NCBI GenBank assembly: GCA_028866715.1
Contig: JAGWHO010000001.1
Location: 1-64,000, forward strand
From: Microcaldota archaeon
Lineage (GTDB): Archaea; Micrarchaeota; Micrarchaeia; Micrarchaeales; Micrarchaeaceae
Reading direction: 5' to 3'
DNA length: 64,000 nt
Shown here: positions 258-64,000 of the stretch, one piece after another
Numbering within the stretch: the first letter of the stretch is position 1
How the letters are laid out: every line of letters starts with the position of its first letter
Program-made: the position numbers and the translations under genes
The notes under the pieces: generated by a model
Seen by the model: only the letters and a program-made list of their open reading frames with translations
Databases searched by the model: none
Told to the model about the DNA's origin: nothing

Positions 258-287
258 GGCTGATTTTGAGGGGGGTCAAAATCAGCC
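258..287. repeat. Perfect 12-bp inverted repeat around a G6 spacer
   Basis: GGCTGATTTTGA at 258-269 is followed by six G and then its exact reverse complement at 276-287. The right arm with its G-run is also present in the second repeat copy (63350-63361), but there the left arm is missing. It marks the start of the conserved repeat block. It could be a protein-binding site or a hairpin; the sequence does not decide. Confidence 0.7.
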
Positions 288-541
288 TAGGGCGTCCATG
301 TTCTATAAAGTAGCCGCAGCAGCCGTAGCCCGCCGTGCGACACCGAAGGTGTCTTTTGGGCGGGCGTAGGCTGCGAGGCGGGAGTTTCTCTACATGAAAC
401 TCTACATGGACGACTCTAATATTGATGTGCAGTAGTTCCTCGTGAAAAAGTCCTATTTTGACGGCTTACGAGGGAGATTTTCTCTACATGGAATGACTTA
501 GGCATGTAGAGAATCTTAGGCATGTAGAGGAAATGCCAGAT
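270..541. repeat. Structured ~270-bp element repeat, copy 1
   Basis: This block recurs at 63344-63610 with clear but imperfect identity. Shared parts, in order, are a G-run with TCAAAATCAGCC, a long GC-rich hairpin (319-374), a near-identical stretch containing ATTGATGTGCAGTAG (421-435), and short sites related to TCTCTACATG. Plus-orientation sites lie at 387-396, 400-408 and 481-490. Inverted sites lie at 503-512 and 521-530. The block ends one base before the stop codon of the recombinase. Spacing between the last three sites is almost the same in both copies. I infer arm-type recombinase sites, an origin or a non-coding RNA of the element; I cannot choose between them. Confidence 0.8.
319..374 (+). 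ncRNA. Conserved GC-rich hairpin (candidate structured RNA)
   Basis: Three nested helices can be drawn: 319-324 with 369-374, 328-334 with 359-365, and 339-344 with 348-353 closed by a GAA loop. In the second copy (63392-63448) substitutions inside helices keep pairing. An A-U pair becomes G-U in the inner helix and a C-G pair becomes U-G in the outer one. This suggests selection on the fold rather than on the letters. The strand is arbitrary, since either strand can form the fold. A terminator for the adjacent minus-strand gene is an alternative. Confidence 0.5.
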
Positions 542-1402: not shown

Positions 1403-1429
1403 CGCTTTTGTCCTCGTATTTCCAGAAAT

Positions 1430-1500
1430 GGGCCCGCGGAGAATCGAACTCCGTGTCTTCACGTTGTCAACGTGACGTCTTACCAATCGACTACGAGCCC
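1430..1500 (-). tRNA. tRNA-Val (GAC)
   Basis: A complete 71-nt cloverleaf reads on the minus strand. The 7-bp acceptor GGGCTCG pairs with CGGGCCC (one U-G pair), the anticodon stem TCACG/CGTGA is perfect, the loop TTGACAA has anticodon GAC, and the T arm is CGGAG-TTCGATT-CTCCG. No intron and no encoded CCA are present. Its first base follows the stop codon of RNase Z with no gap, so it is probably co-transcribed with that mRNA. A recombinase lies immediately beyond the 3' end, so the gene is the likely attachment site of the element to the left. Confidence 0.95.
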
Positions 1501-9477: not shown

Positions 9478-10245
9478 ATGGCGCGCGGATACGACCTGCT
9501 GGGCAACATAGCGGTTATAGAGCCAATGGGCAGGATTGAAGAGAGGAAAAAGGCCCAGGAGCTAATGAAGACTCATGAGCACATAACCACGGTGCTGGCA
9601 AAGGCTGGCGCAGTATCTGGAAGGTACAGGACGCGCAAGCACAGATATGTGGCAGGCAAGAGGACCAAGATAGCAATCTACAAGGAAAACGGCTGCACAT
9701 TCAAGTTCAACGTAGATACGTCTTTCTTCTCCAACAGGTTGTCGTACGAGCGCTCGAGGATAATGGCTCTTGTGAGGAAGAAAGAAAATGTCATGGTGAT
9801 GTTCGCGGGAGTAGGGCCGTTCGCGATAGAGATAGCAAAGACCCGCAAAGACGCTAATGTTGCCGCTGTGGAGCTGAACAAGAACGCTTACAAGTACATG
9901 CTGGAGAACATAAAGCTGAACAAGGCGCAGAACGTAGTCGCGATAAACTCCGATGTGAAGAAGATACCGCAAAAATACAAGGGCTTCGCTGACAGGGTAG
10001 TAATGCCGATGCCGAAATCGAGCCTGCTGTTCCTAGACCAGGCGTTCATGGTGGCGAAGAAGAGATGCGTGGTGCACATCTATTCCTTTGGCAATTCTGA
10101 AACGGCATCAGATGACGTTTATGGCGCGATAAAGGAGCACGCAAAGAAGAACGGATACAAGGTTAAGCGTCTTCTTGAAAGGACTGTGAGGCCTTACTCC
10201 GCGAAAGAGATAGAGATAGTGATAGACTTCCAGATTTCAAGATGA
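9478..10245 (+). CDS. trm5: Trm5-family tRNA G37 N1-methyltransferase, D1-less
   Basis: This SAM-dependent class I methyltransferase acts at tRNA position 37. The D2 domain begins almost at residue 5 (YDLLGNIAVIEP), followed by a SAM motif MFAGVGPFAIEIAK (about 114), the acidic AAVELN strand and a VVMPMPKS loop where Trm5 usually has MNLPKS. The D1 domain of most archaeal Trm5 enzymes (about 70 residues) is absent. Taw2 enzymes of the wyosine pathway also lack D1, so that role remains possible. I prefer Trm5 because of the PKS loop. Confidence 0.82.
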   Translation: MARGYDLLGNIAVIEPMGRIEERKKAQELMKTHEHITTVLAKAGAVSGRYRTRKHRYVAGKRTKIAIYKENGCTFKFNVDTSFFSNRLSYERSRIMALVRKKENVMVMFAGVGPFAIEIAKTRKDANVAAVELNKNAYKYMLENIKLNKAQNVVAINSDVKKIPQKYKGFADRVVMPMPKSSLLFLDQAFMVAKKRCVVHIYSFGNSETASDDVYGAIKEHAKKNGYKVKRLLERTVRPYSAKEIEIVIDFQISR

Positions 10246-10309
10246 CGACGATGCGATAGGCATAAATACCCGTCTTGACAATCAAAATAGGCGATTAGAA
10301 GGTAGAGAA

Positions 10310-11035
10310 ATGGCGGCCAGCGAGGTAGAGCTTTCTGCCACATACAATGGCGGAGAGCTGAATCTAGAGGAATTTGTCCAGAACGCAACATGGCGAGAGC
10401 TTCTCATGCAGCTCGTTGACACGCATCAGCTTGATCCTTGGAACATAGACCTGTCGAAGATAGTGGACAGCTACATGCACGTCATCAGAAGGATGAAGGT
10501 GCTTGAGCTTCAAGTCCCTGCTAACATAATGCTTGCGGCTTCGATACTTCTCAGGATGAAGAGCGACACGATAAGCGTGTTCGAGCAGCCTCAGGAAGAG
10601 ATTGTTGAGGATGGGATCAGACAGGAACGCGTAATTCCCGAAGTGCCTGCGCTAATGCCGAGGGCGAGGCTCCAGCCGGGAAGAAAGGTCACGCTTGACG
10701 AGCTGATGGAGGCCCTTGGCGACGCGATAAAGATAACCGAGAAGCGCGAGACCATCATAAAGCAGAAGTCCATACCGCTCAACATGATCATAAACAAGGA
10801 CGACATCGACGAGAAGATAGAGAGGGCGTACGGCCTTGTGTCGAAGAACATAGACAAGGAAGGGTATACCACATTCGACAGGGTATCGAGACTCTTCGGG
10901 TCCGAAAGCGCTGTGCTTCTCGACCTTTTCATACCGCTGCTGTTCCTGTCGCATCAGGGCAAGGTGATGCTCATGCAGGAGAATTTCTTCGACGAGATAT
11001 TCATAAAGCTTAACAAGGGTAACGAAAATGCCTGA
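10310..11035 (+). CDS. scpA: Segregation and condensation protein ScpA (kleisin)
   Basis: ScpA is the kleisin that bridges the heads of an SMC dimer in chromosome condensation. The N-terminal ELNLEEFVQNATWRELLMQ and DPWNIDLSKIVDSYM, then ILLRMKSD, and the C-terminal winged helix (SRLFGSESAVLLDLFIPLLFL) match the family. Length 241 aa is normal. Its end overlaps scpB by eight bases, so the two are co-translated. No smc gene is in the window. Confidence 0.92.
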   Translation: MAASEVELSATYNGGELNLEEFVQNATWRELLMQLVDTHQLDPWNIDLSKIVDSYMHVIRRMKVLELQVPANIMLAASILLRMKSDTISVFEQPQEEIVEDGIRQERVIPEVPALMPRARLQPGRKVTLDELMEALGDAIKITEKRETIIKQKSIPLNMIINKDDIDEKIERAYGLVSKNIDKEGYTTFDRVSRLFGSESAVLLDLFIPLLFLSHQGKVMLMQENFFDEIFIKLNKGNENA

Positions 11036-11498
11036 CCAGGAAAAGAACGCGGAATATAAGCTGATTGCCGAGGCGGCGCTGTTCGTGTCTGGAAGAGCCA
11101 TGGGCCCGGACGAGATAGCCGCGGTTCTTGGTGTCGCGTCCGTGGGCTTCGTGAAGAAGATGATGGACGACTTCGTAGAGGAGTACAACGCAAGAAGCAG
11201 CCCTCTCATGATTTCGAAGCTCGGAGACAAGTACACGCTTGGCGTGAAGGAGCAGTATGTGGGAAAGGTCAATCAGCTCGCAGGCACGCCGGACATATCG
11301 AAGAGCTCCCTGCGCATACTCGCATTCATAAGCAAGAACGAGCCAGTGATGCAGAACCAGATAGTCAAGGCCTTCGGCACATCGGCATACGACCACATCC
11401 ACGAACTGCTTGAGAAGGAGTTTATAGCCAGGAAACCTGTCGGGAGAACAAAGAAAGTAGAGACGACCCAGAAGTTCAGGGAGTACTTCAACGTCTAG
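11028..11498 (+). CDS. scpB: Segregation and condensation protein ScpB
   Basis: ScpB dimers bind the ScpA kleisin. Two winged-helix domains are visible: AEAALFVSGRAMGPDEIAAVLGV (about 12-34) and LRILAFISKNEPVMQNQIVKAFG (about 91-113), with the family's closing KPVGRTKKVETTQKFREYF. The 156-aa length is near the archaeal norm. The position immediately after scpA supports the call. Confidence 0.9.
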   Translation: MPDQEKNAEYKLIAEAALFVSGRAMGPDEIAAVLGVASVGFVKKMMDDFVEEYNARSSPLMISKLGDKYTLGVKEQYVGKVNQLAGTPDISKSSLRILAFISKNEPVMQNQIVKAFGTSAYDHIHELLEKEFIARKPVGRTKKVETTQKFREYFNV

Positions 11499-11502
11499 TA
11501 TA

Positions 11503-11868
11503 TCATCCGAGCACGATTACCCTGTTGCTGCCCAGCTCTTCGAATCCCTTGTCCTGCGTCAAGAGGACCTCATCGTGGGCGGTACAGACGCCGTATATCA
11601 TGATGTCGTTATCGCTCAGCATCTTGCCTTTGGCCTTTAGTTGCCTGTAAGAATTTGCTGCAGCCCGGACTGCGGCCTCGTTGGAATGGTGGACTGCGAG
11701 ATTCTGTAGGGCGGGTTCCAGGCGCTCCCTGTTTTTGTATTTCAGTAGTTCATATTCATTTACAAATGTCATCGATAGCTCCGATGGTGGGTACTTGCTT
11801 ACTTCTGCTACGATATTTTCCTTCCCCTCAAGGAAGTCGATTATTACGTTTGTGTCGAGGACTACCAC
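11503..11868 (-). CDS. vapC: PIN-domain toxin, VapC type
   Basis: PIN ribonuclease with VVLDTNVIIDFL at the N terminus, the Glu in FVNEYELLKY, DNDIMIYGVC and TQDKGFEEL as acidic metal-site segments. It starts at GTG 11868, four bases after the antitoxin stop. It is convergent with scpB with a gap of only four bases. The second VapBC pair in this window is not closely similar to the first. Confidence 0.88.
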   Translation of the reverse strand: MVVLDTNVIIDFLEGKENIVAEVSKYPPSELSMTFVNEYELLKYKNRERLEPALQNLAVHHSNEAAVRAAANSYRQLKAKGKMLSDNDIMIYGVCTAHDEVLLTQDKGFEELGSNRVIVLG

Positions 11869-11872
11869 ATTA

Positions 11873-12097
11873 TCACACTGTTTCTGTATTCCTTTCCCTG
11901 TCGCTCTTTATCTGCCTCTTGAAGCGTTCAAGTTCTACAGACTGCGATTGCATGGAGCCTGCGAACTTCAAGAAGTTGCGTTTGGGGCTTGCTGTACTGA
12001 CCAGCTTTAGTATGACATCCGAGAAAGACATGTCCTTGCCCTTCATCCTAGAAAGGGTCTTGTAGGCCACATCAGACAGCGACACAAGTTTGCTCAT
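11873..12097 (-). CDS. vapB: VapB-type antitoxin
   Basis: This 74-aa protein starts MSKLVSLSDVAYKTLSRMKG and continues DMSFSDVILKLV, the DNA-binding pattern of the UPF0330 antitoxins. The basic C-terminal region would wrap the PIN toxin encoded next. I use ATG 12097, since the longer frame has no family similarity. Upstream lies an AT-rich stretch (ATATATGTATAGTATACATAT, about 12107-12127) that contains the palindrome TATGTATAGTATACATA, a plausible operator. Confidence 0.8.
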   Translation of the reverse strand: MSKLVSLSDVAYKTLSRMKGKDMSFSDVILKLVSTASPKRNFLKFAGSMQSQSVELERFKRQIKSDRERNTETV

Positions 12098-12109
12098 TCC
12101 ATCACAGTA

Positions 12110-12126
12110 TATATGTATAGTATACA
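12110..12126. promoter_or_regulatory. Palindrome upstream of the second VapBC pair
   Basis: TATGTATAGTATACATA reads nearly the same on both strands, and it sits about 13-29 bases before the antitoxin ATG. It overlaps the expected TATA/start region, which suits autorepression by the VapBC complex. This role is inferred from position and symmetry only. Confidence 0.5.
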
Positions 12127-12171
12127 TATATTAATCTTTCTACGGCCTACGGCTCTTCAATGACATTTATG

Positions 12172-12705
12172 CTAGTACGAGGGGTTGAACTCTTCTATCC
12201 CTTCCCTCTTGTTGAGATGCAGCGCCGCGACAAAGAGAAGCGACGAGAGCCTGTTAAGATATCTGATTATCTCTGGGTTGATTTTGCTGTCCGAGCTCGC
12301 CGCAACCGCGGAGCGCTCCGCCCTTCTGCATATGGATCTTGCCATATGGAGGCCTGCCGCTCCGGCAGAGCCTCCCGGTAGGACGAACTTCTTGAGTTCT
12401 GGAAGCGTTGCTGATATGGATTCGATCTCTTTCTCCAGATTGGCGACCTTGCTCTTGGCCATCTTGCTCTTTGCCTCATTTCCCGATGCAAGCTCAGCGC
12501 CTATTATGAAGACGTCGTTCTGGACCGATTGGAGCATCTTCGCTATGTGGTCGTCGCTTATTTCAGTCATCGCGAGGCCTATGGCGCTGTTGAGCTCGTC
12601 AGCATCGCCTATCGCAGAGATTATCGCGCTGTCCTTCTTCACCCTACTGCCGCCGAGCAGGCCTGTGGTTCCGCTGTCACCAGTTCCGGTGTAGAATCGA
12701 GGCAT
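12172..12705 (-). CDS. Cob(I)alamin adenosyltransferase, PduO type
   Basis: The enzyme transfers the adenosyl group of ATP to cob(I)alamin, giving coenzyme B12. The ATP-binding N terminus FYTGTGDSGTTGLLGGSRVKKD and DADELNSAIGLA, LPGGSAGAAGLHMARSICRRAER and YLNRLSSLLFVAAL are all family hallmarks. The start is ATG 12705 (177 aa), about 10-15 bases downstream of a TATA-like TTATAAATAGG on this strand. No other cobalamin gene is present, so it probably serves salvage. Confidence 0.92.
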   Translation of the reverse strand: MPRFYTGTGDSGTTGLLGGSRVKKDSAIISAIGDADELNSAIGLAMTEISDDHIAKMLQSVQNDVFIIGAELASGNEAKSKMAKSKVANLEKEIESISATLPELKKFVLPGGSAGAAGLHMARSICRRAERSAVAASSDSKINPEIIRYLNRLSSLLFVAALHLNKREGIEEFNPSY

Positions 12706-12752
12706 GAGAATCCTATTTATAAGTGAATGTGACATTATTTAATCCTATATCA

Positions 12753-12823
12753 GGGCCTGTAGTCGAATGGTAAGACGTCACCTTCACAAGGTAAAGATCC
12801 GGAGTTCGATTCTCCGCAGGCCC
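12753..12823 (+). tRNA. tRNA-Val (CAC)
   Basis: A 71-nt cloverleaf: acceptor GGGCCTG/CAGGCCC is perfect, the anticodon loop TTCACAA gives CAC, and the T arm is CGGAG-TTCGATT-CTCCG. The anticodon stem TCACC/GGTAA has one C-A mismatch. Most of the body is the same as tRNA-Val(GAC) at 1430-1500. No intron is seen. Flanking genes show no sign of an integrated element here. Confidence 0.93.
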
Positions 12824-12837
12824 ATATTAGATTAGAG

Positions 12838-13062
12838 TCAAACCAGCGCTTCCTTCAGAACCTTCATGATATAGTTTTGCCTGTTTCTGCCTTCCTCTTC
12901 CGCTTTCCTGTCTATCTGTTCGACCAGGCTTTTTGGGAGCCGCATGAACACAGGGCGCGTTTGCTCCTTCTGCAGCCTGCGGGCCTCGTCCTCATTCTTA
13001 AGGGCCTCCTCCAAGCTCGCAAATTCCTTGCGCAGCTCTGCCATGTCCTCTTTTATCGTCAT
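12838..13062 (-). CDS. Ribbon-helix-helix antitoxin
   Basis: This 74-aa protein has a charged coiled-coil N-terminal half and a C-terminal ribbon-helix-helix: PVFMRLPKSLVEQIDRKAEE followed by GRNRQNYIMKVL. This inverts the more usual N-terminal RHH arrangement. Its start overlaps the stop of the Doc-like toxin gene upstream (ATGA), so the pair is co-translated with the toxin first. Antitoxin function is inferred from the pairing. Confidence 0.75.
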   Translation of the reverse strand: MTIKEDMAELRKEFASLEEALKNEDEARRLQKEQTRPVFMRLPKSLVEQIDRKAEEEGRNRQNYIMKVLKEALV

Positions 13063-13424
13063 GTTATCGACTCTAATGTTGTTAGCGCTTTTATCAGTTT
13101 TTCTACCTTATTCTTTTGGGCCTTCCCTATTGCTATCTCATTGAGGATTTTCATCATCTTGTTATCGAAATCCGGCTCTTTCTTTAATTCATATCCGTTT
13201 AGTTTCAGAAACTCTACGAAGGCGTAAAACGCGGTTCTTTTGTTTCCGTTGAGAAATGAATGCGCCCTCGGTATCTCGTATAAAAGGGTTGTCGCATAAT
13301 TGAGTTTATCTTCGATATTGCTTGCGGTCTCGATCACGAATTCGAGATTGCTGTTCAGGACAATGCCCCTTTCTCCGAGCTCTTTGTTTATCTCTATTAT
13401 ATCGCCATAGGTCAATCTTTTCAT
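13059..13424 (-). CDS. doc: Fic/Doc family toxin
   Basis: Doc proteins of the Fic fold transfer phosphate (Doc) or nucleotides (Fic) to target proteins. The signature HSFLNGNKRTAFYAF (about residues 54-68) is an intact Fic motif HxFxxGNKRT. Length 121 aa and the N-terminal LTYGDIIEINKEL fit Doc rather than large Fic enzymes. It is encoded before a ribbon-helix-helix partner, the reverse of the Phd-Doc order. The target is not predictable. Confidence 0.87.
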   Translation of the reverse strand: MKRLTYGDIIEINKELGERGIVLNSNLEFVIETASNIEDKLNYATTLLYEIPRAHSFLNGNKRTAFYAFVEFLKLNGYELKKEPDFDNKMMKILNEIAIGKAQKNKVEKLIKALTTLESIT

Positions 13425-13515
13425 ATGTATATCTTATGCTATCAACAGATATATATACCTACCGGGCATAAATAAATAGATTCTCATCGGATAACTCTGT
13501 TATAAAGGAATTCTT

Positions 13516-14277
13516 ATGATAAGCACGTACCTGACAGTGGGGCTCTCGTTCCTGATAGGGCTGTTCATATTCGTCTCGTGGCCAATAGTGCTGCACAGAT
13601 CCACCGGGCCCAGGCGGATGCTCTTCTTCAACTCATTCGCGATAGGCATACTTGTATTCCTGCTCATGGACATATTCGGGGACGTGGCGGGCATCTTCGG
13701 GAGCAGCACGATAACTAACCCGCTCGTGGTGATATTCTTAGCCGGATTTGCGATTGCGTTCCTGTTCTTCGTTATGCCTAAAACGAGCAGAGACCCGGAG
13801 GAGAACCCGAAGAGGACATCCGTGCTAGCTGGCATGGGGATAGGCTTCCAGAACCTCACAGAGGGGCTTGTGTTCGGGTCTGCCGGAGCGGCAGGGCTTC
13901 TCCCGATATACGTGCTTTCGGTGATAGGCTTCGGACTCCAGAATATGACTGAGGGATTCCCGATCGCAGCGCCGCTGGTCGGCCTGAAGCAGAAGCTCGA
14001 CAGGAGGTTCATTGCAGGGGTCTTCGCCCTTGGAGGCGCGCCGACAGTGATAGGGACACTGATAGGCCTTGTATTCTACTCTAACACGTTCATAGTGTTC
14101 TTCGACGCGCTGGCGTGCGCGGCCATACTGTATGTGGTGCTGGTGCTGTTCCACATAAACGTGATAAGGGGCAGCAGGAGCGCTTATGGGATAAAGAGAT
14201 CGATGTGGCTCACCTATATGGGTGTACTGGCAGGGTTCGCTGCCGCGTACGTAGTCAATTATGCGGTAATCGCATGA
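13516..14277 (+). CDS. ZIP-family metal transporter
   Basis: This polytopic membrane protein (about eight helices, 253 aa) of the ZIP family moves divalent metal ions into the cytoplasm. Two signature helices are visible: GIGFQNLTEGLVFGSAG and GFGLQNMTEGFPIAAP. ZIP proteins usually have HNxxEG in the first of these; Gln replaces His in both. This may alter metal preference. The cytoplasmic loop carries RDPEENPKR. The next small gene begins within its stop codon. Confidence 0.85.
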   Translation: MISTYLTVGLSFLIGLFIFVSWPIVLHRSTGPRRMLFFNSFAIGILVFLLMDIFGDVAGIFGSSTITNPLVVIFLAGFAIAFLFFVMPKTSRDPEENPKRTSVLAGMGIGFQNLTEGLVFGSAGAAGLLPIYVLSVIGFGLQNMTEGFPIAAPLVGLKQKLDRRFIAGVFALGGAPTVIGTLIGLVFYSNTFIVFFDALACAAILYVVLVLFHINVIRGSRSAYGIKRSMWLTYMGVLAGFAAAYVVNYAVIA

Positions 14278-14516
14278 TTGAGATGGATGAAACGCGCAGG
14301 CAGAGCATCATTTTCATCGTCGCGCTTCTTGCCATAGGACTTATTATAACGCAGGCTGTCTTCCACGTGACTGTGAACCTGACGTTCGACGATGCGAACT
14401 ACATCTATTACGCGCAGCATATGCCCAACGGCACGCTGTCCCTTCAGGGTTCTCTGCCGCATGCATACAAAACCGGGTTCATAGACGATCCGGCCCAGAG
14501 CGCCTCCGGCGCATAA
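14274..14516 (+). pseudogene. GT-C glycosyltransferase N-terminal remnant (80 aa)
   Basis: The start overlaps the ZIP gene stop as ATGA. The product has one membrane helix (SIIFIVALLAIGLIITQAVF) followed by LTFDDANYIYYAQHMPNG, which resembles LLFFDDAIYQAMGQSLL in the full GT-C enzyme at 59808-61514. After that it ends at a stop without the remaining helices. It is either a decayed glycosyltransferase or a small membrane protein derived from one. The aspartates of the first extracytoplasmic loop are kept. Confidence 0.55.
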
Positions 14517-14563
14517 TGTCTAAAAATATTTGACATTTCAGAGTTTTATCATAAAAAACGATA

Positions 14564-14573
14564 TTTATTTAAA
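14564..14573 (+). promoter_or_regulatory. TATA box of the heat-shock operon
   Basis: TTTATTTAAA lies about 25-30 bases before GTG 14596. The reading frame of the HTH gene stays open through this motif, but translation from the earlier ATG would begin upstream of the promoter. This supports the shorter protein and a leaderless transcript for HTH-grpE-dnaK-dnaJ. Confidence 0.6.
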
Positions 14574-14595
14574 CATATTGCACCATAATAGTAGT

Positions 14596-15012
14596 GTGGA
14601 GCGAATAATCATAAGGTTCGTGGAGCGTCCGGATTCCGATGAACCTGAAGAGATGATAAAGTGGTTCTGCCACGTGTTCGGATTATCTAATGACGATGAC
14701 AACGGCATAGAGGAAGAGATACTCAAGAGCTTCGTCAAGGCAGCGTACCGCGACGAGGGGCTGTCCAGTTCCGAGTTGAAGCTGCACTCAGACATGGCAA
14801 GAAGCACGGTGATATACCACCTGAACAGGTTCATAGATGCAGGGCTTCTGGTCAAGCACGGAAGGAAATACTTCCTAAGAGCGTCGGAGATGTCGAAGGC
14901 CATAGAAGAGATAGAGTATGACATAGAAAGGGAGATGAGGCGCATGCTCGATACTGCGAAGGAATTTGACAGGCTCATGCTGCAAGGATCAAGGAAACAG
15001 AGAAAGAGGTGA
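14596..15012 (+). CDS. Winged-helix regulator heading the grpE-dnaK-dnaJ operon
   Basis: These 138 residues contain a central winged helix, EEILKSFVKAAYRDEGLSSSEL followed by DMARSTVIYHLNRFIDAGLLVKHGRKYFL. That is the ArsR/MarR-like pattern with a clear recognition helix and wing. A long charged C-terminal helix could dimerise. It is the first gene of the chaperone operon, and grpE begins four bases after its stop. I infer that it senses stress and controls its own operon, as HrcA, HspR or Phr do elsewhere, but it belongs to none of these by motif. The start at GTG 14596 is chosen from the TATA position. Confidence 0.75.
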   Translation: MERIIIRFVERPDSDEPEEMIKWFCHVFGLSNDDDNGIEEEILKSFVKAAYRDEGLSSSELKLHSDMARSTVIYHLNRFIDAGLLVKHGRKYFLRASEMSKAIEEIEYDIEREMRRMLDTAKEFDRLMLQGSRKQRKR

Positions 15013-15016
15013 TGCT

Positions 15017-15532
15017 GTGGTCGATGAACAAGAAGATGTGCATAACGAAGATAGCGCCGAAAATCAGGACGATAAATTAAAAGAGATGAGAGAGCAGCTA
15101 CTGAGACTGGCGGCAGAGTTCGACAACTACAAGAAGAGGACAAGATCCGAGGTTGAGAATGCCTCGATGATGGGCAGGGCAGGCATGGCAAAGGAGCTGC
15201 TTCCGATAATCGATGAGTTTGAATTGGCGCTCATCGCTGCTGGCAGGTCTGATGACAAGGTTCTCGCCAAGGGCATTGAGATGCTCTACTCCAATCTAAT
15301 TGACGTGATGAAGAGGAACGGGTTGACCGTTATGCACACTGACGGAAAATTCGATCCGTACAGGCACGAGATTGTGATGGTGAAAGAAGAAGGGGCGAAA
15401 GAGGACGGAACGATACTCGAGGTAATGAAAAAGGGTTACATGTTCAGGGACATGATGCTCAGGCCTGCGTCTGTCGTGATCGCGAAGAGCCTTCCCGTGA
15501 TGAAAGATGATGAAGGTAAAGATGGCAATTAA
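15017..15532 (+). CDS. grpE: GrpE nucleotide-exchange factor
   Basis: GrpE releases ADP from DnaK. The long N-terminal helix leads into LAAEFDNYKKRTRSE, then LPIIDEFELAL and the C-terminal beta domain with DPYRHEIVMVKEE and GYMFRDMMLRPASVVIA, all hallmarks. I start at GTG 15017 (171 aa), which follows an AGAGGTGAT ribosome-binding site formed by the end of the HTH gene. No membrane or signal segment is present. The Hsp70 set in archaea was acquired from bacteria (established). Confidence 0.93.
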   Translation: MVDEQEDVHNEDSAENQDDKLKEMREQLLRLAAEFDNYKKRTRSEVENASMMGRAGMAKELLPIIDEFELALIAAGRSDDKVLAKGIEMLYSNLIDVMKRNGLTVMHTDGKFDPYRHEIVMVKEEGAKEDGTILEVMKKGYMFRDMMLRPASVVIAKSLPVMKDDEGKDGN

Positions 15533-15544
15533 TAGGTGAAACAA

Positions 15545-17392
15545 ATGGCAAAGATAATTGGAATTGATTTAGGGACATCGAATTCAGCTGCCGCAGTATT
15601 GGAAGGCGGCAGGCCTGTTCTGATACCGAGCAGCGAAGGGGCCTCGCTCTACGGCAAGGCCTTCCCGAGCTTCGTTGCATTCACAAAGGACGGACAGAGG
15701 CTGGTAGGGGAGCCAGCAAAGAGGCAGGCGGTCGCAAACCCTGAAGGTACTGTATTCGCATTCAAGCGAAAGATGGGAACGGACTTCAAGTACAAGGTAT
15801 TCGGAAAGGACTACACACCGCAGGAGCTTTCAGCCATTCTCTTGCAGAAGATAAAGCACGATGCAGAGGCGTTCTTGGGCGAGGAGGTGAAGAAGGCCGT
15901 GATAACAGTTCCGGCTTATTTCAACGACAATCAGAGGCAAGCGACGAAAGATGCCGGCCAGATAGCCGGCCTTGAGGTAGTGAGACTTGTCAACGAGCCA
16001 ACTGCCGCAAGCCTTGCCTACGGGCTTGACAAGGCAGGAAAGGAGATGAAGATACTTGTATACGATCTAGGAGGCGGAACCCTTGACGTAACGATCATGG
16101 ACTTCGGCAACGGCGTCTTCGAGGTAAAGTCGACAAGCGGAGACACGCAGCTTGGAGGCACAGACATGGACAATGCGATAGTGGATTTCCTCGCAAGCGA
16201 GGTGAAGAACAGCACTGGCGTAGATGTGTCAAAGAGCCTGCAGGCAATGCAGAGGCTTAGGGAAGCAGGCGAAAAGGCGAAGATAGAGCTTTCGACAGTC
16301 ATTACAACAGAGATAAACCTGCCGTTCCTTGCTCAAGACGCGAAGGGCCAGCCGGTGAACTTCACGTACTCGTTCACAAGGGCTAAGCTCGAAAGCCTGG
16401 TAATAAAGATAATAGAGAGGTCTGCGAAGCCAGTGATGCAGGCGCTGCAGGACGCAAAGATGGAGCCTGCAGGAGTGGACAAGATAATACTGGTTGGAGG
16501 ACCCACGAGAATGCCGATAGTGCAAAGATATGTGGAACAGCTTCTTGGCAAGAAGATAGAAAGAGGGGTAGACCCGATGGAGGCAGTTGCGCTCGGAGCG
16601 GCAATACAGGCAGGCGTGCTTACCGGCGAGGTGAAGGACATAGTCCTTCTTGACGTCACTCCGTTGTCACTGAGCATAGAGACGCTTGGGGGAGTCGCTA
16701 CAAAGCTCATTGACAGGAACACAACAATACCTGTAAAGAAATCACAGGTATTCACAACTGCGGAGAGCAACCAGACAACAGTTGACATACACATAGTGCA
16801 GGGCGAAAGAGCTCTTGCGAAGGACAACGTCGATCTTGGAAGGTTCCAGCTTACAGGCATACCGCCCTCGCCAAGGGGCATGCCGCAGATAGAGGTCACG
16901 TTCGACATAGACTCAAACGGCATATTGCACGTAACGGCGAAGGACAAAGCAACAGGTAAGTCGCAAAGCATGGACATAGTCGCTCCGAACAAGATGAGCA
17001 AAGACGATATAGACAAGAAGGTCCAGGACGCGCAGCAGTATGAAGAGGAGGACAAGAAGATAAGGGAACAGATAGAGACGAAGAACAGCGCAGAGTCGCT
17101 TGTCTATACGGTTGAGAAGACCCTTGATGAGTACAAGGACAAGGTGCCGAAAGAGATACAGGACCAGATAAACTCTGCAAAGGCAGAGCTCCAGGAGGCG
17201 CTGAAGACAGATGATTACGACAAGATAAAGGAAAAGATGGACGCGCTCGCGAAGAAACTGCAGGAGATAGGGACCAGCATGTACAAAGATGCTGGAGCAG
17301 CGGGGCAACCCGGCCAAGAGCAAGGCCCAACAGACCAGCAGCAGGGCCCGTCTGACCCGAATGCTACAGATGCCGACTTCAAGGTGAAGTAG
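15545..17392 (+). CDS. dnaK: DnaK (Hsp70) chaperone
   Basis: This ATP-dependent folding chaperone has 615 aa. The nucleotide-binding domain opens [19 protein letters not shown], with [33 protein letters not shown] and [13 protein letters not shown]. The substrate domain has [13 protein letters not shown] and a helical lid from about 495. The C-terminal tail is Gln/Pro/Gly-rich. An AGGTGA ribosome site precedes ATG 15545. The cluster order grpE-dnaK-dnaJ is intact. Confidence 0.97.
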
Positions 17393-63042: not shown

Positions 63043-63343
63043 CAAACCCCCTGTCTATACTCTCATCGGCAAGCTTAATAAGTTGCCTTTTATGCAGGGG
63101 AAGGGATTCGAACTCTCGAACCCCTAAGGGTTTGGGGGTCTAGCCCAGCAGTTTTCACGCCTATATTCCTAGCCATGTTTCACACCAAAAACAACATAAA
63201 ATCCTAAGCCCAAGCAGGTTCATCTGAACCATGAATAATAGCCAAGCAGGGCATATAAGCAGCTAGCGTTCAGATTTCCAGCAAATTCGAACCCACTATT
63301 TGCCTAGCTTTTGACTCAGCCATTTATACAATTTATTTTTGCG
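63043..63343. other. Intergenic junction with tRNA-Leu fragment
   Basis: Apart from the tRNA fragment I see no gene. An AT-rich stretch at 63320-63340 precedes the G-run of the second repeat copy. A TTCGAACCC at 63287-63295 resembles a T-loop, but it has no stem partner. The junction of an integrated element probably lies near 63150. Confidence 0.45.
63093..63150 (-). pseudogene. tRNA-Leu 3' fragment (probable attachment-site remnant)
   Basis: On the minus strand this reads as the 3' part of a class II tRNA: an extra arm AACCCTTAGGGGTT, a T loop TTCGAAT with a stem carrying one A-C mismatch, and the acceptor strand CCCCTGC followed by A. The extra arm and T arm match archaeal tRNA-Leu. No complementary 5' acceptor (GCAGGGG) is present upstream on this strand, so the gene is incomplete here. 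The intact copy would lie beyond 64000 if this is the displaced end of an integrated element. Confidence 0.6.
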
Positions 63344-63610
63344 GGGGGGTCAAAATCAGCCTTAACGCCGCCCATGTCCTACAAAGTAGCAGCAGCTGTA
63401 GCCCGCCGTGCGACGCCCGAAGGTGTCTTAAAGGCGGGCGGAGGCTGCGAGGCGTGAGAGTCTCTACACGTCTCTCTACATGGACGGCTCTTATATTGAT
63501 GTGCAGTAGTGTAGAGAGAAAAAGGTCTTTTACAAGGGTTTCCCTCGAAACATTTCTCTACATGGATCTGACTAGGTGCGTAGAGAAAGATGAACCGTGT
63601 AGAGAAGTAG
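63344..63610. repeat. Structured element repeat, copy 2
   Basis: The second copy of the block at 270-541 keeps the G-run with TCAAAATCAGCC (63350-63361), the hairpin (63392-63448) and the stretch with ATTGATGTGCAGTAG. It also keeps the TCTCTACATG-like sites: plus orientation at 63461-63470, 63473-63482 and 63555-63564; inverted at 63508-63517, 63577-63586 and 63596-63605. It again lies directly downstream of a minus-strand gene, here a RelE-type toxin. Divergence is spread through the block, so the copies are not recent. Confidence 0.8.
63392..63448 (+). ncRNA. Conserved hairpin, second copy
   Basis: GCAGCT/GGCTGC, GCCCGCC/GGCGGGC and GACGCC/GGTGTC form the same three nested helices as at 319-374. 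Differences from copy 1 keep pairing by G-U wobble, and the loop lengths change by only one base. As with copy 1, transcription and strand are unknown. Confidence 0.5.
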
Positions 63611-63618
63611 ATAGTTGC

Positions 63619-63870
63619 TTACTCGTGATGCTCAAATGAGGTGAAGACTACCTCGTGCCCCTCCTCGTTTACCCTATATGTAACGACCAGATGGCCAACG
63701 TGGAACCTGCGTATGCCATGAAGCGGGGCGCGCATCGGCTTGCCTATGTTCGGGGTTTCAAGAACCAGTGCTATCTTCTTCATGACCTGCTCGTAAGTTG
63801 CCCTGTCGCGCTTCTTCCTGTACACGAGTTCCTCCTGCATCTTGTCGCTGAATGCAGGTTTGTAGGCCAT
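63619..63870 (-). CDS. RelE/ParE-type toxin
   Basis: The 83-aa protein has the RelE fold pattern: a basic N-terminal helix pair (EELVYRKKRDRATYEQVMKKIALVLE), then IGKPMRAPLHGIRRFHVGHLVVTYRVNEE and a closing strand VVFTSFEHHE. RelE toxins cleave mRNA in the ribosome; Arg and His residues typical of the active region are present. It starts four bases after the antitoxin stop and ends at the second repeat copy. Confidence 0.82.
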   Translation of the reverse strand: MAYKPAFSDKMQEELVYRKKRDRATYEQVMKKIALVLETPNIGKPMRAPLHGIRRFHVGHLVVTYRVNEEGHEVVFTSFEHHE

Positions 63871-63874
63871 GGCA

Positions 63875-64000
63875 TCAGCCTATCGCTCTATCAAAATCAG
63901 CCAAGCTCTTATAGTGGTGAACCTTCATCCTGCCGGAATCTATTGCCTTCCACTCCTTCGCTATCCTGCTTATCATCTTTCGGTCAGGCTCGGCCTCGTC
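63875..64000 (-). CDS. Antitoxin of the RelE-type pair (C-terminal part)
   Basis: The frame is cut by the window edge. The visible 41 residues end MKVHHYKSLADFDRAIG, a basic then acidic tail common in RelB-like antitoxins that wrap the toxin. The gene precedes the toxin on the same strand with a four-base gap. The N-terminal DNA-binding part lies beyond 64000. Confidence 0.7.
   Translation of the reverse strand, partial: DEAEPDRKMISRIAKEWKAIDSGRMKVHHYKSLADFDRAIG

Follow-up and report, generated by a model that had tools for sequence, protein, structure and literature searches.

A hairpin and word-array block shared by tRNA-targeting islands of Micrarchaeota, possibly a trans-activated rolling-circle-like replication origin

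What is the role of a structured repeat of about 270 bp that two integrated elements share within a single stretch of archaeal DNA? The window analysed here is the whole of that stretch, 64,000 nucleotides at the start of a Micrarchaeota contig (JAGWHO010000001.1). A sequence-only reading had placed the copies at 270-541 and 63344-63610 and offered three guesses: an origin, a recombinase regulatory region or a new RNA family of the element. Both copies are present at these places, since blastn of positions 260-545 matches 63344-63587 with 78% identity over 244 bp (E 3e-49), and no further significant match to copy 1 occurs elsewhere in the 878-kb genome. Copy 1 is thus real, but its first limits are too short: homology across genomes begins near position 161, where a conserved start (AGGTAACCC...) is seen in many loci of other genomes, and the block, which is non-coding and some 400 bases long, extends over approximately 160-541.

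The left part of the block (M) is a run of hairpins encoded in copy 1 on the plus strand. The conserved left edge and hairpin M1 (CTACGCCAGCACGTTC-hairpin-TCACGTGGGCTAACG) occupy 161-222, and the M profile covers 177-286. The next two hairpins, M2 (GACC-CAAC-GGTC, 223-234) and M3 (GCTAG-CAAC-CTAGC, 240-253), have stems of 4-5 bp with a conserved CAAC-like loop; the 4-bp stem of M2 covaries and takes 19 distinct forms, and that of M3 takes 18 in the set. These are followed by M4 (GGCTGATTTTG - G-rich loop - CAAAATCAGCC, 258-287), whose loop is G-rich or C-rich elsewhere, and by a small hairpin (CTATAAAGTAG) together with the three-helix GC-rich hairpin M7 (303-380). Folding of the three-helix hairpin, which had been predicted at the outset, beats 200 shuffles in both copies (z -3.9 in copy 1, -3.0 in copy 2). 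The M part of copy 2 (63344-63460, plus strand) is truncated: it lacks M1-M3 and half of M4, keeps the other half of M4, the small hairpin and M7, and yields no full M with R1, a covariance model of hairpins M2-M4.

The right part (S) is composed of five copies of one 10-letter word in a fixed geometry. S1 and S2 are direct and 12-13 apart, S3 is direct and about 95 after S1, and an inverted pair follows with S4 about +23 from S3 and S5 +18/19 from S4. In copy 1, S1 (387-396) and S2 (399-408) are direct copies of TCTCTACATG on the plus strand, S3 lies at 481-490 on the same strand, and S4 (503-512) and S5 (521-530) are inverted on the minus strand, with last spacings of 22 and 18. The S part of copy 2 (63461-63605, plus strand) has direct sites at 63461, 63473 and 63555 and inverted sites at 63577 and 63596, the last spacings being 22 and 19, in agreement with the nearly fixed spacing first reported. 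A sixth, partial inverted site comes after the core of copy 2, at about 63512. The interval from S2 to S3 contains an AT-rich core, usually an inverse half-word, and a central hairpin. The conserved core of copy 1 (GACGACTCTAATATTGATGTGCAGTAGT) spans 409-437 and its central hairpin (CCTCGT...ACGAGG), which is kept in other word types, spans 438-473, both on the plus strand; the core of copy 2 lies at 63483-63511. A near-invariant central stretch had been noticed between the copies, and in the alignment TATTGATGTGCAGTAGT plus its flanks is identical in both. Core variants elsewhere include TAATATTGATG, an exact TAATATTAC in locus L062 and TATATTACC in word type D.

Each copy lies downstream of a minus-strand gene of an element, as the sequence-only reading had stated. 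For copy 1 this gene encodes a tyrosine integrase (Phage_integrase, 542-1486), and its 5' end overlaps the 3' half of the tRNA-Val(GAC) gene (1429-1500, minus strand) that is the integration target of element 1; the element runs past the contig start, and its left end is off the contig. Element 2 is about 2 kb long and begins with a left attachment repeat (63105-63130, minus strand) of 26 bp that matches the 3' half of tRNA-Leu(TAG) without a difference. The block follows, and then come a toxin of the YafQ/ParE type (RelE superfamily, 63619-63870, minus strand) that directly adjoins copy 2, a putative antitoxin (63875-64000 and on to contig position 64108, minus strand), the integrase (contig 64159-64926, minus strand) and, adjoining it, the tRNA-Leu(TAG) gene (contig 65019-65105, beyond the window).

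Within the family, 22 of the 85 genomes and 11 of the 27 genera contain the block, and R1 matched the M hairpins in 61 of 301 phylum genomes sampled, all in two families of one order. The loci with related integrases are labelled as Micrarchaeota MAGs (phylum Microcaldota in NCBI). Block-bearing islands have a tyrosine integrase of about 256-316 aa, the gene for which overlaps a tRNA gene at its 5' end (Leu, Glu or Val in most loci). In roughly a dozen loci the far end of the island is marked by a second, directly repeated copy of the tRNA 3' half, which gives sizes of 1.4-7.4 kb; these are tRNA-targeting islands, with an integrase and tRNA 3'-end repeats at both ends. The usual order is cargo, block, toxin-antitoxin genes, integrase and tRNA, with the exception of genome G209, in which the block is inverted and at the island end opposite the integrase. 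The toxin-antitoxin genes are of the DUF4258+DUF2283, HicBA and YafQ/ParE types, and the cargo includes a BsuBI/PstI restriction enzyme, HNH, ParA, thioredoxin-like and hydrolase proteins and a copper P-type ATPase. The cargo at L040:5222-7740 places the BsuBI/PstI-type enzyme beside a probable methyltransferase, and an IS110-like transposase gene lies within the integrase region of that island; a ParA-type partition ATPase is encoded at L047:9418-10398 in an island of 4.4 kb. The island integrase had no match in PLSDB plasmids or INPHARED phages.

One block-bearing island has moved recently. Genomes G078 (family f1) and G209 (family f2, on a 587-kb contig) have 3,874 bp in common at 99.95% identity, block included (L194:15361-19234 and L193:9957-13830). 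The common stretch begins within the 3' end of a tRNA and outside it the flanking DNA is unrelated, and identity of this degree over 3.9 kb in two families points to recent between-family transfer, unless one contig is misbinned. Deeper inside the complete G209 island (9961-17364) are genes for a copper P-type ATPase, a PadR regulator and thioredoxin-like proteins.

The word of S is common within one island and different between islands, with about eight or more discrete types. These include TCTCTACATG, ACTAAAGACC, ACTAAAGACG, ACTTGGAACG and ACTTTATCTG, as well as ACTTTAACCG, ACTTCATCTG, ACTACACATG, ACTCCACATG and others, and some types retain only part of the five sites. A scan for the geometry gave 20 matches, spread over 14 loci, and an equal amount of shuffled sequence gave 0, so the five-site layout is not due to chance. 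Across the 85 genomes, the inverted S3-S4 word pair of type B occurs nowhere but inside blocks. The words have a common frame near ACTnnAnnYG, which we read as though the proteins that recognise them were related. Among words of one type, a deviation at one site is mostly uncorrelated with deviations at the others, with weak signals for S4-S5 and S3-S5 only (11 and 16 of 500 permutations), a pattern that would be expected for protein-binding sites. The word sites were also considered as intramolecular pairing partners and rejected as such, as co-deviation is mostly at expectation and the two weak signals perhaps reflect shared ancestry.

Every S module, 50 of 50, has M on its upstream side and pointing the same way, mostly 72-250 bp away. 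In eleven loci (L053, L055, L056, L057, L058, L101, L102, L104, L105, L118 and L123) a single M is followed by a tandem of two S modules that differ in type, and two orders recur, ACTAAAGACC then TCTCTACATG and ACTTGGAACG then ACTTTATCTG. The layout of S, in which S1, S2, the core and the half-site mirror S3, S4 and S5 around the central hairpin, has the fold-back symmetry of a structure-specific recombination site such as the integron attC, and the variable cargo would suit a site that collects cassettes. Archaeal integrons likewise combine a tyrosine recombinase, folded single-strand sites and cargo (PMC9668308), but the islands differ from them in having no cassette array, conserved block words and an integrase that is not IntI by model score. 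The integron-integrase model TIGR02249 touches the integrase weakly, at 25.4 and 28.9 bits, far under its cut-off of 265 bits. There is one block per island, sometimes with two adjacent S modules, rather than an array of sites between genes, and each word type is conserved in its sequence, which makes an attC-like role highly improbable, and we count it among the disfavoured readings.

The words are independent of the integrase type, as a tree built from 36 integrases shows. The closely paired L048 (type B) and L103 (type A) differ in word, as do the close pairs L099/L036 and L114/L117, and L099, L036 and L101 are, like L048 and L103, almost identical integrases next to different words. The guess of a recombinase regulatory region, in which the words would be arm-type or excision-control sites of the integrase, draws on the block usually adjoining the integrase gene and on sites that are both direct and inverted. 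It is contradicted by the tree and by G209, where the block is far from the integrase; the distance from block to att also varies, and the short integrases overlap the tRNA with their N-terminus. Arm-type sites are therefore disfavoured and very unlikely to explain the block. One genome, G051, harbours islands of several word types. The readers of the words are accordingly predicted to be several trans-acting proteins, encoded outside the islands as far as these have been surveyed. In each of G051, G050 and G053, some 9-12 integrase matches occur together with several word types, which marks lineages rich in islands.

The M hairpins covary strongly. In an alignment of 20 sequences, 13 of the 19 pairs have changes on both sides, and double-change cells number 52 where shuffles give 11 (0/500), and a shift of the partner by a single column abolishes the signal. 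Covariation, conserved sites and linkage to recombinase genes, which the sequence-only reading had predicted for further copies, are all seen in them. The pairs of M2 and M3 comprise 275 Watson-Crick, 1 G.T and 4 A.C. The tRNAs of the same loci hold 96 G.U in 1446 pairs (6.6%), a control that is fair for G.U and unfair for A.C because the tRNA finder demands pairing. Against these tRNAs, G.T is rare both in M2/M3 (1/276, Fisher p 1e-6) and over all pairs of alignment A3 (7/355, p 3e-4), and a census of mismatches in the stems gave 10 G.T versus 19 A.C. Strong covariation almost without G.T suggests that selection on the hairpins acts at the level of DNA, on single-stranded or extruded forms, and not on RNA; selection of this kind looks to be the case here, judging from how seldom G.T occurs. 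A structured non-coding RNA of the element, the guess of a new RNA family, would account for the covariation and for the slight plus-strand advantage in fold energy (24/33, with a small strand difference), but it sits poorly with the scarcity of G.U and with an M4 loop that occurs in either orientation, and a search of Rfam gave no family match. An RNA is consequently disfavoured and decidedly unlikely.

Of the three original guesses, an origin fits best. In rolling-circle plasmids the sso lies 100-200 bp upstream of the dso (PMC9569500), the sso functions in a single orientation and restricts the host range, and six residues can determine the specificity of the initiator for the dso (PMC5703833). 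A common M with an exchangeable S matches this division of labour, with the structured module upstream in fixed orientation in all 50 S modules and with hairpin selection that appears, from G.T rarity, to be at the DNA level. By analogy, the block may be a Rep-less rolling-circle-like replication (or transfer) origin in which S is the dso and M the sso, activated in trans, a tentative reading to which we give a little less than an even chance. The integrase would excise the island as a circle, and an initiator supplied in trans by a helper plasmid or virus resident in the same cell would bind the five iteron-like words of S. It would then act at the AT-rich core, where a TAATATTGATG-like sequence is the candidate nick site, and start rolling-circle-type replication or, less likely, transfer. 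M would fold in the displaced single strand and serve as the single-strand origin for second-strand synthesis. The word types would correspond to different initiators, and an island with tandem S modules could draw on two helpers. Nicking, the helper protein and ssDNA replication are thus what we infer, and the absence of most of M from copy 2 counts against the model.

The nearest rival to a dso/sso origin is an oriT-like transfer origin, at which the relaxase-like protein of a helper would nick the block and the island would move from cell to cell as ssDNA, as an 'iOriT' element. The anatomy would be the same, with hairpins, word arrays and no enzyme of its own, and the recent cross-family transfer also speaks for it. 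Integrative elements that carry only an oriT are found in bacteria, and no archaeal relaxases are known (PMC11389934). An orientation-locked structured module upstream of a word array is, however, more typical of sso and dso. We also know of no conjugation machinery in Micrarchaeota, and a transfer origin is on balance unlikely.

The helper predicted by the origin reading was searched for in several ways. No replication initiator, and no cognate HUH Rep in cis, was recognised among the scanned cargo proteins, which are part of all cargo. Rep_1 (PF01446) and Rep_trans (PF02486) had no match over the cut-off in the 85 family genomes, although MAGs could have missed a free helper, and Y1 transposases are common with no clear link to block presence as judged by eye. 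In IMG/VR, four exact block or core patterns gave no match, and four word patterns gave nothing, or six type-D and one type-C lone palindromes in unrelated contigs that were judged to be chance. This bears on another reading, in which the block is a cos/pac-like site for packaging of a virus satellite or for recognition by a helper virus. The islands resemble minimal satellites, with an integrase and cargo, and discrete word types would fit helper types, but the exact patterns revealed no block-bearing virus contig and the scanned islands contain no terminase or capsid gene; such a site is rather improbable.

Rolling-circle plasmid origins of the pT181 and pMV158 families and of the archaeal pGT5 and Methanosarcina pC2A are like the block in having a structured single-strand module that lies 100-200 bp upstream of one specific to the initiator, with a fixed orientation between the two and with specificity classes. 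The block differs in its lack of a Rep gene in cis and in a nick site that is only a candidate, and to our knowledge five words in a direct and inverted layout have not been described for such origins. Geminivirus iterons and their stem-loop (TAATATTAC) also resemble the block through short type-specific words and an AT-rich core, and geminivirus satellites lack Rep, as do the Micrarchaeota islands as far as scanned. This is a resemblance only, as the islands are archaeal and integrated, their words are longer and the geometry is different. As elements, the islands are similar to tycheposons, PICMI-type minimal islands and IMEs or 'hitcher' elements (PMC11389934), which have a tRNA target, a tyrosine recombinase, few genes, cargo and helper dependence; they differ in being found in DPANN archaea and in their cis-acting block.

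Both the kind of element, a tRNA-targeting hitcher, and the kind of site, an origin, are already known, and the block, its word types and the host group appear to be new; the open-access papers searched contain no description of integrative elements in Micrarchaeota. The block could further represent a new class of trans-activated DNA origin, in which one hairpin module with interchangeable word modules (at least eight specificities) moves Rep-less Micrarchaeota islands, tandem modules serve two helpers and the initiator family is yet to be discovered; this is possible, though we hold it with considerable doubt. Little is known of how the tiny-genome DPANN archaea acquire genes, and the block provides a sequence handle for finding Micrarchaeota islands, while the word types point to a predicted set of DNA-binding initiators or helper replicons for which searches can be made. 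The 99.95% identical cross-family copy indicates that island traffic is recent, and the findings together suggest a largely unseen traffic of hitch-hiking DNA among Micrarchaeota.

Integrases of this family (about 50-56% identity) are also encoded at seven further loci (L110, L112, L113, L115, L116, L120 and L127), where the downstream DNA is AT-rich and no block is recognisable; these are a related element type that is differently built. Within the window, TCAAAATCAGCC occurs both at 276-287, in hairpin M4, and at 63890-63901, in the terminal part of the antitoxin gene of element 2, which may be a coincidence.
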